Positions 4,318 to 10,191 of a DNA stretch of 64,000 bases are shown piece by piece (within the stretch, counting starts at the first letter, position 1; each line of letters starts with the position of its first letter). This DNA is from Cryomorphaceae bacterium (lineage in GTDB: Bacteria; Bacteroidota; Bacteroidia; Flavobacteriales; Schleiferiaceae). The translations under genes were made by a program, and so were the position numbers. The stretch covers positions 62,001 to 126,000 of the forward strand of contig JAJTFK010000005.1 of assembly GCA_021298655.1 (NCBI GenBank). The letters run 5' to 3'. The notes under the pieces were generated by a model. The model ran no database searches. It had not been told where the DNA came from and worked only from the letters and a program-made list of their open reading frames with translations.

Positions 4318-7059
4318 ATGAAGAACATGTTCGTCGCCCTTACTGCCGCGATTAGTGTGCCATTGGGTGCGCAGATTTTAAGCGTCACCCCAGCCTTCCC
4401 GACCCAAAACGATACGGTTACGGTGGTGTACGACGCGACCCAAGGCAATGCGGCGTTGACGGGTGTTTCGCCGGTGTATGCCCACGCGGGGTTGATTACT
4501 AGTGCGTCGACTTCGCCGACGAATTGGCAGTTTGTGCAGGGCACCTGGGGGCAGCCGACGGCCAAGGTGCTGATGACCAATTTGGGCAACAACAAGCACC
4601 AGATCAAGTACCATATTCCGACTTTTTATGGGTTTCCGGGCGGGACCCAGGTTCAGCAACTGGCTTTTGTGTTCCGCAACGCAGCCGGTACGGTGGTGGG
4701 GCGCAGCGCCGACGGAACGGACATTTACTACCCCATTTATCCGGCGAACTCCGGCTTGCTCGCGGCCTTTTTTGCGCCAAGCGGACCGCAAATCGCCAAT
4801 CCCGGCGACACGCTCAAGCTGGTGGCTGCAGCGAACCAAAGTGCGGTACTCAAGATCTACGACAACGGGGTACTAAAGACGACGGTAGCCAATACTGCAT
4901 CGCTGAATTACAACCTCATTGCAACGACCCCGGGCGCGCACACCGTGGTGCTCGAAGCGGTTTCGGGTACGTCGACCGCCTACGACACGATTCACTACAC
5001 AGGGAACCCGATTCAAATGGTGGCTCCGGTCCCGCAGGGTTGGTTGGATGGCGCCAACTACCTCAACGACAGCACGGTGGGCTTGGTCTTGAGGGCGCCA
5101 TTCAAGGAGTTTGTGTATGTGCTGGGCGACTTTAACGATTTTTTGCCGTCCACGAGCTACTTCATGAATAAGAGCACCGACGGGGAGCGGTTTTGGTTGA
5201 CCATTCCGGTGGCGGCTGGCCAGCAGTACGCCTACCAGTACTGGATTGACGGGGCGATTAAGGTGGCCGATCCCTTGGCGGAGCTGATTTTGGATCCGAA
5301 TTCCGACGGCGGAATACCGGCGGGAACCTGGCCGGGCTTGCATCCGTATCCGACCGGAAAGACCACGGGGTTTTGCGCCCTGCTGCGCCCTGGGGCGCCC
5401 GAGTACGCCTGGAAGAACTCGTCGTTTACCCCGCCCGGGAAGGCCGACCTGATTATTTACGAACTGCTGGTGCGCGATTTTATCGCCGCCCGAAACTACC
5501 AAGCGCTCATTGATACGTTGGGCTACCTGCAGCGCCTGGGCATCAACGCCATCGAGCTGATGCCCAACAGCGAGTTTGAGAACAACGAGAGCTGGGGCTA
5601 TAATCCGAGCTTCCACATGGCGCTGGACAAGTACTACGGGACGCCCGAGAAGTTCAAGGAGTTCGTGGATTCCTGCCACAGCAAGGGGATTGCGGTGATT
5701 GCCGACATGGTGCTCAACCACGCCTTTGGGCAAAATCCGATGGTGAATATGTACTGGGATCAAGTAAACAGTCGGCCGGCGTCGAACAGTCCCTGGTTTA
5801 ATGCGGTGTGTCCGCACCCGCCGTACTGCTGGGGCTACGATTTCAACCACGAAAAGCAGGCAACCAAGGACTATGTGGACCGCGTGACCACGTTCTGGTT
5901 GCAGGAGTACCGGATCGACGGCATTCGCTTTGACTACACCAAGGGCTTTATGAACGGTAGCGCGGGGGCTTCGGCCGTGCGGCAGGCGATCATTAAGCGC
6001 ATCGGCGATACGATTTGGTCGGTCAATCCCAACGCCCACCTGATTTTGGAGCACTGGGCGGACAATTCCGAAGAAAAGGCCTTGGCGGACTATGGGTTTA
6101 TGCTTTGGGGAAATTCCACCTACAATTTTCACCAAGCGGGGCAGGGGAACACGCAAAGTAATTTTTCTTGGGCCTACCACGGCGCGCGCGGCTGGACCAA
6201 GCCGGGTTTGGTTTCCTACCCCGAAAGCCACGACGAAGAACGGCTGATGTACGAGGTGCTGACCTACGGCAGTACGGCCAACCCGAACCACAATCCGCGC
6301 CAGCTCGCCACCGGGCTGCGCCGCGCCGAGGCGGTGAATTTGTTTGCCTACCTGATTCCGGGTCCCCGAATGATTTGGATGTTCGGCGAGCTCGGCTACG
6401 ACGTATCCATCAACAACCCCTGCCGCGTGTGCAACAAACCGATTCGCTGGAACTACTACCAGGTACCGGAGCGCCGGCGGCTGTATGACGTAACCTCGGC
6501 CATTTTTAATCTGCGGCGGGCCCATCCGGCGACCTTCCGCGACGGACAGTTCACCTACAGCTTCTCGGGAAATACCAAGCGCATGGTGTTCAACAGTTCG
6601 GGCATGGACGCGGTGGTGTTGGGCAATTTTGCGGTAACCACCCAGTCCATTATTCCAGCCTTTCCGAGTGCCGGCACCTGGTACGATTACTTCAGCGGCG
6701 ATTCGATTACGGTTTTGGACGTAAACGCCAGCATTTCGCTCGCGCCGGGTGCCTACCGGGTATACACCAGCGTTAAGCTGGCGCAGCCGCAGATTGCGCT
6801 GGATGTCGCGGAACTCCCTACGGCTTCGGCCTCGCGGGTATACCCCAATCCGGCGGCGAACGGTTTTTGGTTTGAATCCGCCGGCCCAGGCGGGCGCCTC
6901 ACGCTGGTCGATGCGCAAGGCCGTGTGGTGCGCACCTGGGATCGAAGCGGCCTGAGCCAAGAGTTTTATGATTTGGGTTCCGTACCGGCCGGTTGGTACG
7001 TGGTGGTTTTGGAGCGCGACGGCGTTTTGGAGCGGCATGCCCTTCAGATTCAACCCTAA
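4318..7059 (+). CDS. Secreted GH13 alpha-amylase-family glycoside hydrolase with T9SS sorting domain
   Basis: The 913-residue protein has a signal peptide ending GAQ at residue 20 and two immunoglobulin-like modules (about 20-230). Next comes a CBM48-like E-set module (about 240-330, VYVLGDFNDFLP). The GH13 barrel spans about 370-730. Conserved regions are visible: ADMVLNH; RIDGIRFD with nucleophile D539; ILEHWAD with acid E578; and ESHDEE with D639. The last 80 residues (VYPNPAANG to the end) form a type A C-terminal sorting domain, so export across the outer membrane would use the type IX secretion system. It should hydrolyse or rearrange alpha-glucans at the cell surface or outside. The PAP2 gene follows 5 bp later. 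Family is certain; exact linkage specificity is not. Confidence 0.93.
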   Translation: MKNMFVALTAAISVPLGAQILSVTPAFPTQNDTVTVVYDATQGNAALTGVSPVYAHAGLITSASTSPTNWQFVQGTWGQPTAKVLMTNLGNNKHQIKYHIPTFYGFPGGTQVQQLAFVFRNAAGTVVGRSADGTDIYYPIYPANSGLLAAFFAPSGPQIANPGDTLKLVAAANQSAVLKIYDNGVLKTTVANTASLNYNLIATTPGAHTVVLEAVSGTSTAYDTIHYTGNPIQMVAPVPQGWLDGANYLNDSTVGLVLRAPFKEFVYVLGDFNDFLPSTSYFMNKSTDGERFWLTIPVAAGQQYAYQYWIDGAIKVADPLAELILDPNSDGGIPAGTWPGLHPYPTGKTTGFCALLRPGAPEYAWKNSSFTPPGKADLIIYELLVRDFIAARNYQALIDTLGYLQRLGINAIELMPNSEFENNESWGYNPSFHMALDKYYGTPEKFKEFVDSCHSKGIAVIADMVLNHAFGQNPMVNMYWDQVNSRPASNSPWFNAVCPHPPYCWGYDFNHEKQATKDYVDRVTTFWLQEYRIDGIRFDYTKGFMNGSAGASAVRQAIIKRIGDTIWSVNPNAHLILEHWADNSEEKALADYGFMLWGNSTYNFHQAGQGNTQSNFSWAYHGARGWTKPGLVSYPESHDEERLMYEVLTYGSTANPNHNPRQLATGLRRAEAVNLFAYLIPGPRMIWMFGELGYDVSINNPCRVCNKPIRWNYYQVPERRRLYDVTSAIFNLRRAHPATFRDGQFTYSFSGNTKRMVFNSSGMDAVVLGNFAVTTQSIIPAFPSAGTWYDYFSGDSITVLDVNASISLAPGAYRVYTSVKLAQPQIALDVAELPTASASRVYPNPAANGFWFESAGPGGRLTLVDAQGRVVRTWDRSGLSQEFYDLGSVPAGWYVVVLERDGVLERHALQIQP

Positions 7060-7064
7060 GCATT

Positions 7065-7796
7065 GTGCGTACCTACTTAGTAACCTTAGCCGTGCTGGCT
7101 TCGCTGCAGGCCAGCGCCCAGATTCCGTACCGCATCCGCCCGGCGGTCGATGTGCCCGTTTATGGGGTTTCGCTTGGATTGGTCGCGGTAAACGGTCAGC
7201 TGGGCGACCGGCTTACTTCATGGACCGAGGCGGAACTGCAGCTTCTGGAGCCCCGTAACGTACCCGCCTGGGATGCGGTGGCCCTCAACCGATGGAATCC
7301 GTCGGCCGGAACCCGTTCGGACTTGGGCATGTTTGCGGCATTTGGCGCGGCAGGCCTTACGGTCTTAGCCAACACCCCCCGTGAACAGTGGGTGCGCGAT
7401 GGGGCGGTACTGGGTAGCCTGTGGTTTCAGACCAACCTGAGTACGCTGATGCTGACGGATTTGGTCAAGAACAGCGTGAAGCGCAACCGACCCTTTGTCT
7501 ACTACGACGGAGCGCCCTTGACCGACCGAATGGAGTCGGACGCGCGCAAGTCGTTTTTTTCGGGGCATTCGAGCATCACGGCCTGCAATGCCGTTTTTGC
7601 GGCCAAGATCTGGACCGATATGCATCCCGATTCCAAGCTAAAGCCCTGGGTTTGGACGGCTGCAGCTGCCCTTCCGGCCTACGTGGCCTGGCAGCGCGTG
7701 GAGGCCGGCAAGCACTATCCTTCGGATGTGTTGGTGGGCCTTGCTGTGGGCGCGGCTATGGGCTACTTGATCCCGCAGCTCCACCTGGCGCGTTAA
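7065..7796 (+). CDS. PAP2-superfamily membrane-associated phosphatase
   Basis: A GTG at 7065 is chosen because it places a signal peptide (VRTYLVTLAVLASLQASAQ) at the N terminus, giving 243 residues. The acid phosphatase/PAP2 signature is present in three parts: KNSVKRNRP, then FFSGHSS (the catalytic His region), then RVEAGKHYPSDVLVG with the second His and Asp. Such proteins remove phosphate from lipid phosphates or undecaprenyl diphosphate on the periplasmic side; which substrate applies is open. It lies 5 bp after the amylase stop and is likely cotranscribed. Its 3' end overlaps the convergent barrel gene by 41 bp. Confidence 0.85.
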   Translation: MRTYLVTLAVLASLQASAQIPYRIRPAVDVPVYGVSLGLVAVNGQLGDRLTSWTEAELQLLEPRNVPAWDAVALNRWNPSAGTRSDLGMFAAFGAAGLTVLANTPREQWVRDGAVLGSLWFQTNLSTLMLTDLVKNSVKRNRPFVYYDGAPLTDRMESDARKSFFSGHSSITACNAVFAAKIWTDMHPDSKLKPWVWTAAAALPAYVAWQRVEAGKHYPSDVLVGLAVGAAMGYLIPQLHLAR

Positions 7797-9003
7797 TCCA
7801 CCGAATGTAGCCCTTGGGGCGTTCCAGCCGTACCCAAACTTGGCTGATTTTTCCGGATTCAAGTCGGACGCTGTCGGTTGGAAGTTTCCAATCCCATCCG
7901 GTCGGCGCCGATCCGCGCACGGCATAGGTTCCGGGCGGAATGTGGTCCTTCCATTGCCGTTCCTGGGGCAGAACCTGGACGCGGTAGGTTTGGGTTCCGC
8001 AAAATTCCAGGTAAAGAGCAGGCGGTGAGCCCGTCATCTCGACGTTGAGGTCGATCCAGGCGGGCGCGCTTGCCGCTTCGCGGTCGGCCGGACGGGGTTC
8101 CTTGGGGCGAAACCCGTGACGGGCCGAAATGCCGGCTGCGAATGCATGGCTTTGTGCACTCCACTCGCCGAAAAAACGCATGCTTCGGTAGCTTAAGCAC
8201 GCCCGATGGGGGTTGCCCAGTTCGACGTAGCTTCCCGAAAATGGGCTTTGGCGTGGAGCACTCCATCGAAGCGTGGCCTGCCCCGTCGACCAACCGGCCA
8301 TCCATCCGCCGGCGTCGGGGGTTTGGATCCAAGCCCGTACGTTCAATTGGGGGCTGCCGTTTCGCTCCGACAGGTGAACCCACATTCGGTGGTCTCGGAC
8401 GTTTAGCGTCCACGTTAGCTGCTGCTGGATGGAATGAGGCGTTTGGGTTCGCCGCCATTCCAAGCTAGATTCCTGGGTGTGCAGGCGAAGCACGTGGCCT
8501 CGCAGCTCCGGACCCCACAGCCATCGGGCATCAACGCTTTGGTCGTGGTAACCCAGGCTGCGGTTGGAGCCGTTCTGGTTGGCTTCGATCCACTGGTTGC
8601 CGGTTCGCCAGGTCAGGGATTGGGTACCTCCAAGGGTCCGCTGCAGGTTGATGCCGTTCCAGCTGGCGCTGCCTACCCAGCCGTGGCGCTGCCAGGTAGC
8701 TTTAGCAGACCATGGCTTGGATGCAAGCTGCCCCTCACCAGACCACATCGCACCCACGCCTCCATTTTGGGCGTGCCAAATACCCGTTCCTCGGCGTGTC
8801 AGGCTCCAGCCCCATCCCGCCATTTGGCTTCCGTACACCAGGGACCAGTCGCCGCGGCGTGCCGCAAGTTGCGGACGGCCTCCGAAGCGCGTGGGCGATG
8901 ACTGAAACCACAGGGAGTGCTTCGAATCCGACCAGGACAGCCCAAGGGCCGGCCAAAGTCCGCCCGGGATCGTGCTCAAGGCCCACCATAGCGCGAAGCT
9001 CAT
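7756..9003 (-). CDS. Beta-barrel protein with C-terminal Ig-like domain, possible reduced usher
   Basis: The ATG at 9003 is chosen because it overlaps the stop of the upstream chaperone-like gene (ATGA), giving 415 residues. After a hydrophobic leader, residues 25-310 consist almost wholly of short amphipathic strands rich in Trp, Ser, Gly and Arg (ATWQRHGWVGSASWNG, QATLRWS), as in an outer-membrane barrel. Residues 330-405 look like an Ig or prealbumin-like domain (PPGTYAVRGSAP, QVWVRLERPKG). It is the third gene of an operon with a pilin-like and a periplasmic-chaperone-like gene, so an assembly or anchoring role at the outer membrane is suggested. It is about half the size of classical ushers and I cannot align it to one, so this is inference. 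Confidence 0.5.
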   Translation of the reverse strand: MSFALWWALSTIPGGLWPALGLSWSDSKHSLWFQSSPTRFGGRPQLAARRGDWSLVYGSQMAGWGWSLTRRGTGIWHAQNGGVGAMWSGEGQLASKPWSAKATWQRHGWVGSASWNGINLQRTLGGTQSLTWRTGNQWIEANQNGSNRSLGYHDQSVDARWLWGPELRGHVLRLHTQESSLEWRRTQTPHSIQQQLTWTLNVRDHRMWVHLSERNGSPQLNVRAWIQTPDAGGWMAGWSTGQATLRWSAPRQSPFSGSYVELGNPHRACLSYRSMRFFGEWSAQSHAFAAGISARHGFRPKEPRPADREAASAPAWIDLNVEMTGSPPALYLEFCGTQTYRVQVLPQERQWKDHIPPGTYAVRGSAPTGWDWKLPTDSVRLESGKISQVWVRLERPKGYIRWINAPGGAAGSSSP

Positions 9004-9647
9004 GGCCGAAGGCTTGCGGTAACCTGTCCGCGTACGTTTTCGAGCCAGACCCCATCGGATTCCGGCGGGAGGACCCAGGTGCGGCGGTCGCCCGGACGCA
9101 GTACCCCGCTCGCAATTCGCTGGGTTCCGCGCTCGAGCCCTTGGAGCGTAAAGCAGGTTCCCACCCAAAAGTTGGGCCCTGCATTGGTCACGTGCACCGA
9201 ATCACCTAACCACGTAAGTTCTACTTCGTCGCCAATGGGGCCGCGGTACAAATCGACCGCATAGCGCATGGAAACCTTGAACCGTACCGTTCCCGCCACC
9301 TCAATCAGAGCGTCTTCCACGGCGGCGGTGGTCACGTAAATGCGGGTGCCTTGGCTGCTGGAGTCCGCGCTTGGCCAGTTGTAGGGTACGGCCATTCGCT
9401 CCCCCGCGTCGAGGCCCACTTCACTCGGAATTTGAATGCTGCGCTGCGTACCCCATAGGCTGTCTACCGAGAGCAATGCGGTAACGGGCTGGTCGCTGGC
9501 ATTGTAGAGTTCAATGACGCCCGTAGCGGATTCGCCTAAGGTATGAAAATGGCTGAGCCCGTTGCGCACGACGACTTGGCCCTGGGCGCAAAGGCAAGCC
9601 AGCGAGGCAGCCCCAAGGAGGCTGCCCCGCAAGCGAGCGAGCTGCAT
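9000..9647 (-). CDS. PapD-like periplasmic chaperone-like protein
   Basis: The 215-residue protein has a signal peptide (to about residue 23) and two beta-sandwich-like halves. The first half carries features reminiscent of fimbrial chaperones: an early IELYNASDQPV strand, IQIPSEVGLDAGER, and a strand-rich VRFKVSMRYAVDLYR at the domain boundary. In pilus chaperones the corresponding strands bind subunits. The gene starts 1 nt after the stop of the pilin-like gene and overlaps the barrel gene by 4 bp, so the three are translated together. The resemblance is structural and partial; the invariant chaperone Arg/Lys pair cannot be confirmed by eye. Confidence 0.5.
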   Translation of the reverse strand: MQLARLRGSLLGAASLACLCAQGQVVVRNGLSHFHTLGESATGVIELYNASDQPVTALLSVDSLWGTQRSIQIPSEVGLDAGERMAVPYNWPSADSSSQGTRIYVTTAAVEDALIEVAGTVRFKVSMRYAVDLYRGPIGDEVELTWLGDSVHVTNAGPNFWVGTCFTLQGLERGTQRIASGVLRPGDRRTWVLPPESDGVWLENVRGQVTASLRP

Positions 9648-9648
9648 G

Positions 9649-10191
9649 CTAGTAGTTGCTGAGGGTGTACTGCAGCGAGACCACGCCGGCTGTTGCGGCG
9701 TCGAGGTTTTCGGTTGCGAAATTCACCATGTGCAAAATGGGTATTCCCTGACCTGCACCTGTGCCGCTGTAGGCCGATCCGATGCCCGTTACGAGTACCC
9801 CCGACTGCTGGCTGTTGCTGAGTACGACCTCGTGCCCTGAACCCGTACTCCCGGTTCCGGCTGGATTGGCCGCCAGGGAGAGGCTTACTCCTGCGGGAAA
9901 ATCACCGCCCACCACGTCCACGCTCAGTGCCCGCTGGTCGTCGGGTGCTGCGGACTTCACCGAAGTGTACTGCAGGTACATCACTTGGCTGGCTACACCC
10001 GGGAAGGCGGCGCCCGCCTGACCCGGAGCCGTGATCTGAAACGTCAAGTTGGTTAGGTTGCCCCCTTGGGCATTTACGGCGCGGATCATGGCTGCTTCGT
10101 CAACTTCAAAAACGGCATCCACAAAATCGGCATTTTGAGCTGAAGCGGCACACGCCGCCAAAAGGGATCCGGTAAAAATCATCGTACGCAT
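9649..10191 (-). CDS. Pilin-like secreted protein
   Basis: The 180-residue protein has a clear signal peptide (ending AASAQ at 19). The mature chain is short, beta-rich and rich in Gly, Ala, Ser and Thr, with no cysteines. It opens with an alternating strand (DFVDAVFEVDEA) and ends with another (GVVSLQYTLSNY) that finishes on tyrosine. An alternating C-terminal strand with an aromatic end is the hallmark of chaperone-usher subunits and of spore-coat-U or DUF4402-type proteins. It is the first gene of the operon with the chaperone-like and barrel genes. It is probably a surface fibre subunit, by inference from fold pattern and context. Confidence 0.5.
   Translation of the reverse strand: MRTMIFTGSLLAACAASAQNADFVDAVFEVDEAAMIRAVNAQGGNLTNLTFQITAPGQAGAAFPGVASQVMYLQYTSVKSAAPDDQRALSVDVVGGDFPAGVSLSLAANPAGTGSTGSGHEVVLSNSQQSGVLVTGIGSAYSGTGAGQGIPILHMVNFATENLDAATAGVVSLQYTLSNY

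Follow-up and report, generated by a model that had tools for sequence, protein, structure and literature searches.

A three-gene operon in a 64,000-nucleotide stretch of a Cryomorphaceae contig (the window) probably encodes a genome-streamlined assembly system of a diderm bacterium, in which chaperone-capped subunits would be exported via an outer-membrane barrel as a fibre. The probability of this reading is put at about 0.58. The proteins involved are a small secreted subunit, a chaperone related to the WxLIP proteins of Gram-positive bacteria and a short, strand-rich third protein, the candidate barrel. Fibre assembly in Bacteroidota is known mostly through the type V (FimA/Mfa) pili. No description of such a system in Bacteroidota was found in the literature searched, which took in no preprints and few subscription papers, so a prior account elsewhere is possible. 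The operon of the window stands at the reduced end of this widespread and apparently undescribed kind of system.

Table 1. Genes of the operon, with their positions in the window.
Gene	Position	Strand	Product
Subunit gene	9649-10191	minus	180 aa, secreted fibre-subunit-like protein
Chaperone-like gene	9000-9647	minus	215 aa, WxLIP/PapD type, periplasmic
Third gene	7756-9003	minus	415 aa, candidate outer-membrane beta-barrel

The host genome is a Bacteroidota genome of 1.6 Mb. The first-pass annotation described the three genes as coupled, with a 1-nt gap followed by a 4-bp overlap, and the open reading frames were indeed found intact at the positions in Table 1. Within the genus, the junction of the subunit and chaperone genes varies from -1 to +6 nt, and the 4-bp overlap between the chaperone and barrel genes, as seen in the window, recurs in 8 of 11 related operons. 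All named carriers of the operon belong to Flavobacteriales; they are metagenome-assembled genomes of freshwater and marine origin that are filed under Cryomorphaceae or Schleiferiaceae (for example, BACL7 and UBA972). Pfam and NCBIfam scans of the three window proteins gave no direct family match. Type V pili and type IX secretion were considered as explanations and set aside, as none of the three proteins has a Pfam match to either.

As regards the neighbouring genes, a PAP2-phosphatase-like gene (6993-7796, plus strand) overlaps the 3' end of the barrel gene convergently by 41 bp (7756-7796), and a comparable overlap is found in two relatives (L039, L041). The upstream neighbour of the window operon is an aldo-keto-reductase-like gene. 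In the sister genus and in a second subclade of the window genus, this place directly upstream of the subunit gene is taken by two Crp/Fnr-like regulator genes (L045, L046, L047, L048, L049 and L050).

The relationship of the chaperone-like protein was reached through its wider family. A PDB search with the single window sequence returned only noise, and a profile built from the genus only (A2) gave no match; the link to WxLIP therefore depends on the wider family. When 35 long-form chaperones from this family were combined into a profile (A14), it matched the EfmWxLIP1 structures 9i25 and 9i1y over both domains (E 8e-17). The window chaperone, in turn, aligns with A14 over 183 columns, covering both domains (hhalign 98.3%). 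One chaperone relative passes the cut-off of WxLIP_PGBD (PF06030), and a tblastn search with a single family sequence picked up Streptomyces proteins annotated as DUF916. The window chaperone is thus linked to the WxLIPs by way of the wider family, and two Ig-like domains are expected in it. It had earlier been called a two-domain PapD-like protein. In that wording this is not supported, since the nearest relative of the chaperone family with known structure is WxLIP; PapD_N appears in 8 of the 35 relatives, weakly and below the cut-off (best E 8.8e-4), and the window protein itself gave no PapD_N match in the Pfam scan. When the translation was read by eye, no hydrophobic C-terminal membrane helix was seen (it ends in ...GQVTASLRP). 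In one genus with genomes of 2.1-2.7 Mb, a WxLIP-like chaperone stands alone, with no adjoining subunit or barrel genes (L096, L097, L125).

The subunit has a signal peptide, a short disordered N-terminal segment, an eight-strand beta-sandwich and a conserved last strand, VSLQYTLSNY. In the AlphaFold2 model (20 sequences; pLDDT 85, pTM 0.74), the chain is unstructured after the signal peptide, shows no strand before residue 33 and closes with a strand at 171-179. As modelled, the fold is a beta-sandwich. When 350,542 PDB chains were searched with Foldseek, the best matches were four CfaB entries (E 0.005-0.018, prob 0.97-1.00; E 0.005 and prob 0.99 for the first of them), and CS17, Caf1, Csu and Fim subunits were also among the first 50. 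The protein had been described as pilin-like, and its closest folds are indeed CfaB-type pilins, but at E-values that are not significant: none is below 0.001, and the TM-scores are about 0.35-0.36, which counts against the assembly reading. It had also been said to end in Tyr, which is true of the window subunit, but this residue is not conserved, the last position in relatives being I, N, S or Y. Common to the subunits across the Bacteroidota survey is a C-terminal motif, (P)GTYTTxVTYTI, which resembles, by eye only, the end of a WxL-bearing Streptomyces protein (PVGDYAGTLTLTLL).

A further family, DUF4402 (PF14352), is matched by 6 of 46 subunits of relatives (best E 3.9e-9), and the distant relative L104 exceeds its gathering score, but the window subunit and its relatives in the genus do not match it. 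Across 60 genomes drawn from the genus, family and order of the window, no PF14352 match exceeded the gathering score. To our knowledge, DUF4402 is a family without an assigned function, and no paper naming it was found in the literature searched. A comparison of the subunit profiles A6 and A16 has rows in common and hence provides no independent evidence.

WxL clusters have been described almost entirely from Lactobacillales and Bacillales. Their WxLIPs are reported to be built of two Ig-like domains, with a hairpin that is predicted to complete the WxL sandwich or to add a strand to it (PMC10599100). By analogy, the WxLIP-WxL arrangement is donor-strand logic without an usher. The window system resembles these Gram-positive (DUF916-DUF3324) clusters in its chaperone family, homologous over both domains as described above, and several of its relatives group a small subunit, a larger subunit with the shared terminal strand motif and a WxLIP-like protein. 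It differs from them in its diderm host, in a chaperone with no apparent C-terminal membrane helix and in the added candidate outer-membrane barrel. The subunits are also unlike WxL, being without the dual Trp-x-Leu motif. No WxL match was found among the 46 subunits, and PF13731 was found in 0 of 21 genomes (the Lactococcus control was found).

The operon might instead encode a surface complex that does not polymerise and is laid out like WxL/WxLIP. In that case the WxLIP-like protein would be a permanent partner of the subunit, and the barrel with its C-terminal domain would anchor the pair in the outer membrane as an adhesin or ligand-binding patch. In favour of this, the chaperone has its closest relatives among the WxLIPs, and these serve as structural partners rather than being recycled as chaperones (PMC10599100), the window operon has a single subunit gene, and peptidoglycan-binding SPOR domains are present near the C-terminus of some long usher-like proteins (L104:4745-8455, L108:1270-4989). 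Yet the chaperone, unlike WxLIP, has no apparent transmembrane helix, and the subunit's fold matches are polymerising pilins. Further, relatives have several near-identical subunits in tandem, as a polymer would predict; an Emticicia MAG, for example, has four tandem paralogous subunit genes before the chaperone gene (L143 2192-4695). This explanation is the strongest of the rivals, but we consider it unlikely.

The usher (PF00577) consists of an N-terminal domain, a 24-strand barrel with a plug, and C-terminal domains. For the third protein of the window, AlphaFold2 (13 sequences) gave a model of moderate confidence (pLDDT 79, pTM 0.51), with about 26 short antiparallel strands and tight turns over residues 2-298 and a prealbumin/Ig-like C-terminal domain at 315-394. 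The model has no N-terminal domain and no plug, and as these are the parts for chaperone docking and gating, both steps are left unexplained, which counts against the assembly reading. A further point against it is that the start of the protein lacks the usual positive charge and is not a classical signal-peptide start; the first residues could be a signal peptide or a strand. The top Foldseek match by E-value is FimD (9fxb_D, E 3e-6, TM 0.32), and after it FimD and PapC entries appear among lyases and porins, including porins of the OccK and OmpU type, with TM about 0.3. The low TM-scores of the third protein and the subunit (0.32-0.36) are counted against the assembly reading. The usher-like barrel of the first-pass annotation is not supported as worded: the model is rich in strands and ushers come best by E-value, but its confidence is moderate and the TM-scores are low. 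Under the assembly reading, the protein would be a closed outer-membrane barrel. Other usher-like genes, whether of the long type or PF00577, were not found in the genus, and PF00577 was found in 0 of 88 family genomes (the E. coli control was found). The few A5 matches in the genus touch only the CarboxypepD_reg segment of large open reading frames.

The longer relatives place this protein in a series. In a survey of 392 Bacteroidota genomes, the chaperone was found in 43, and in the typical neighbourhood one to three small subunits and the chaperone are followed by a usher-like protein of 900-1340 aa, often together with larger subunits (340-480 aa) of the same terminal strand motif. The tandem subunit paralogues and these larger subunits speak for the assembly reading. 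In genera of the same family with genomes of 3-4 Mb, the gene order is the same and the third protein has 903-907 aa, and for counterparts in related genera the range is 905-930 aa. The long protein begins with two Ig-like domains, continues with a strand-rich, barrel-like region and ends in two domains of the CarboxypepD_reg/prealbumin-like type; in one long form, the C-terminal domain gave a weak match to CooC_C (CS1 pilus assembly). In a lineage that is sister to the window genus and has genomes of about 1.8 Mb, the third protein measures 741-762 aa, against 410-425 aa in the window genus itself. The earlier remark that the outer-membrane candidate is of half size is borne out by these lengths. 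The C-terminal domains of the short and long proteins align (hhalign 76%, E 2e-5), and the third gene occupies the same syntenic position in both kinds of operon, but the barrel portions have no detectable sequence homology, the C-terminal domain alone aligning, and this is a point against the assembly reading. The size series reads as a stepwise reduction in streamlined genomes, an argument which rests on synteny and the C-terminal domain.

The lack of similarity in the barrel part, together with the OccK and OmpU type porins among the fold matches, could also mean that an unrelated outer-membrane protein, porin-like or carbohydrate-binding, has replaced the ancestral assembly protein and that no fibre is now built. 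We hold this to be quite improbable, as the position and the 4-bp overlap are conserved, the C-terminal domain matches that of the long forms, ushers are the top fold matches by E-value, and intermediate forms of 750 aa exist in the same family.

With the alternate (CS1/CFA/I, class 5) chaperone-usher pili, the operon shares the order of subunit, chaperone and outer-membrane protein, a subunit fold closest to CfaB, ushers as the third protein's top fold matches by E-value and, in one long relative, a CooC_C-like C-terminal domain. It is unlike chaperone-usher systems in that no PF00577 usher occurs in the 88 family genomes, the chaperone is nearer to WxLIP than to PapD, and the assembly protein, which is roughly half as long, lacks the N-terminal and plug domains and carries a single C-terminal domain. 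Since defining features of chaperone-usher systems and of WxL clusters were looked for in each case and not found, the system is not to be filed as either, though it may still work like one of them.

The operon is well maintained. The subunit and chaperone genes are present in an identical set of 17 genomes (14 of the 22 in the genus and 3 of 3 in the sister genus), and a third gene of 410-425 aa follows wherever the contig permits. It had been suggested that related genomes be searched for the three genes kept together, and this gene order is conserved in the genus, in the sister genus and across Bacteroidota. Subunit homologues occur in 28 of 88 family genomes. The reading frames are unbroken in every genome having the complete sequence. 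All three genes are under purifying selection: between closely related genomes, the subunit gene has a dN/dS of 0.11-0.19, the chaperone gene of 0.16-0.24 and the barrel gene of 0.11-0.21. The operon is a maintained unit and not debris, and its conservation is well beyond chance. That it is what remains of a decaying pilus operon and no longer has a function, as its absence from 8 of the 22 genomes of the genus and the strongly shrunk third gene might suggest, is very improbable, being already disfavoured by the intact reading frames and the dN/dS of 0.11-0.24 in close pairs.

Under the preferred reading of a streamlined assembly system, the small subunit would be exported by Sec, and an alternating strand of the WxLIP-type chaperone would cap its incomplete beta-sandwich in the periplasm. 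A candidate donor strand, chosen from the sequence pattern alone, is the alternating chaperone strand GTVRFKVSMRYAVDLYRG, perhaps near residues 119-136. The chaperone would then hand the subunit to the plugless barrel, through which subunits would pass to the surface. There, the flexible N-terminal segment of each subunit would join the subunits into a thin fibre or a short stalk. Of this mechanism, the analysis shows the gene unit and its conservation, the fold of the subunit, the relationship to WxLIP by way of the wider family and the strand-rich model of the third protein; an outer-membrane location, a closed barrel, donor-strand exchange, translocation (export) and polymerisation are inferred. 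Reduction in the window lineage would have removed from the assembly protein its N-terminal Ig domains and one of the C-terminal domains, leaving a single barrel and a single type of subunit. No tip-adhesin-like gene was found in the operon across the genus, and this is counted against the assembly reading.

A second widespread subunit-chaperone-barrel system would be a new branch of surface-fibre biology. The shortened barrel offers a natural experiment on the parts that an usher can do without; should about 400 residues lacking an N-terminal domain and a plug be able to export a fibre, current views of how ushers are gated and how chaperones dock would have to be revised. The WxLIP-type chaperone points to a possible common origin of the chaperone-usher pathway and a Gram-positive adhesive system. 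As a tentative proposal, which we hold to be doubtful, the Gram-positive WxL/WxLIP clusters and the Gram-negative chaperone-usher pili might both descend from one ancestral subunit-plus-strand-donor module. The systems of Bacteroidota and Deinococcus, in which CfaB-like subunits would be handed by a WxLIP-type chaperone to an outer-membrane barrel, would be what survives of the link, and the barrel of the window lineage would have been reduced to a minimal usher of ~400 residues.

A plasmid search with a long-form barrel as the query gave no match. A plasmid of Deinococcus sp. NW-56 (L186, 4944-10517) carries the chaperone (E 2e-41), a usher-like protein of 1013 aa (E 4e-19) and two subunit-like genes; their order is that of the Bacteroidota operons, which speaks for the assembly reading. 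This system looks complete, and it belongs to a diderm-like phylum beyond Bacteroidota. On a Streptomyces goshikiensis plasmid (L185:2918-4858), a GH43/ricin-lectin protein that weakly matches WxL (E 0.0011) adjoins a DUF916 protein.
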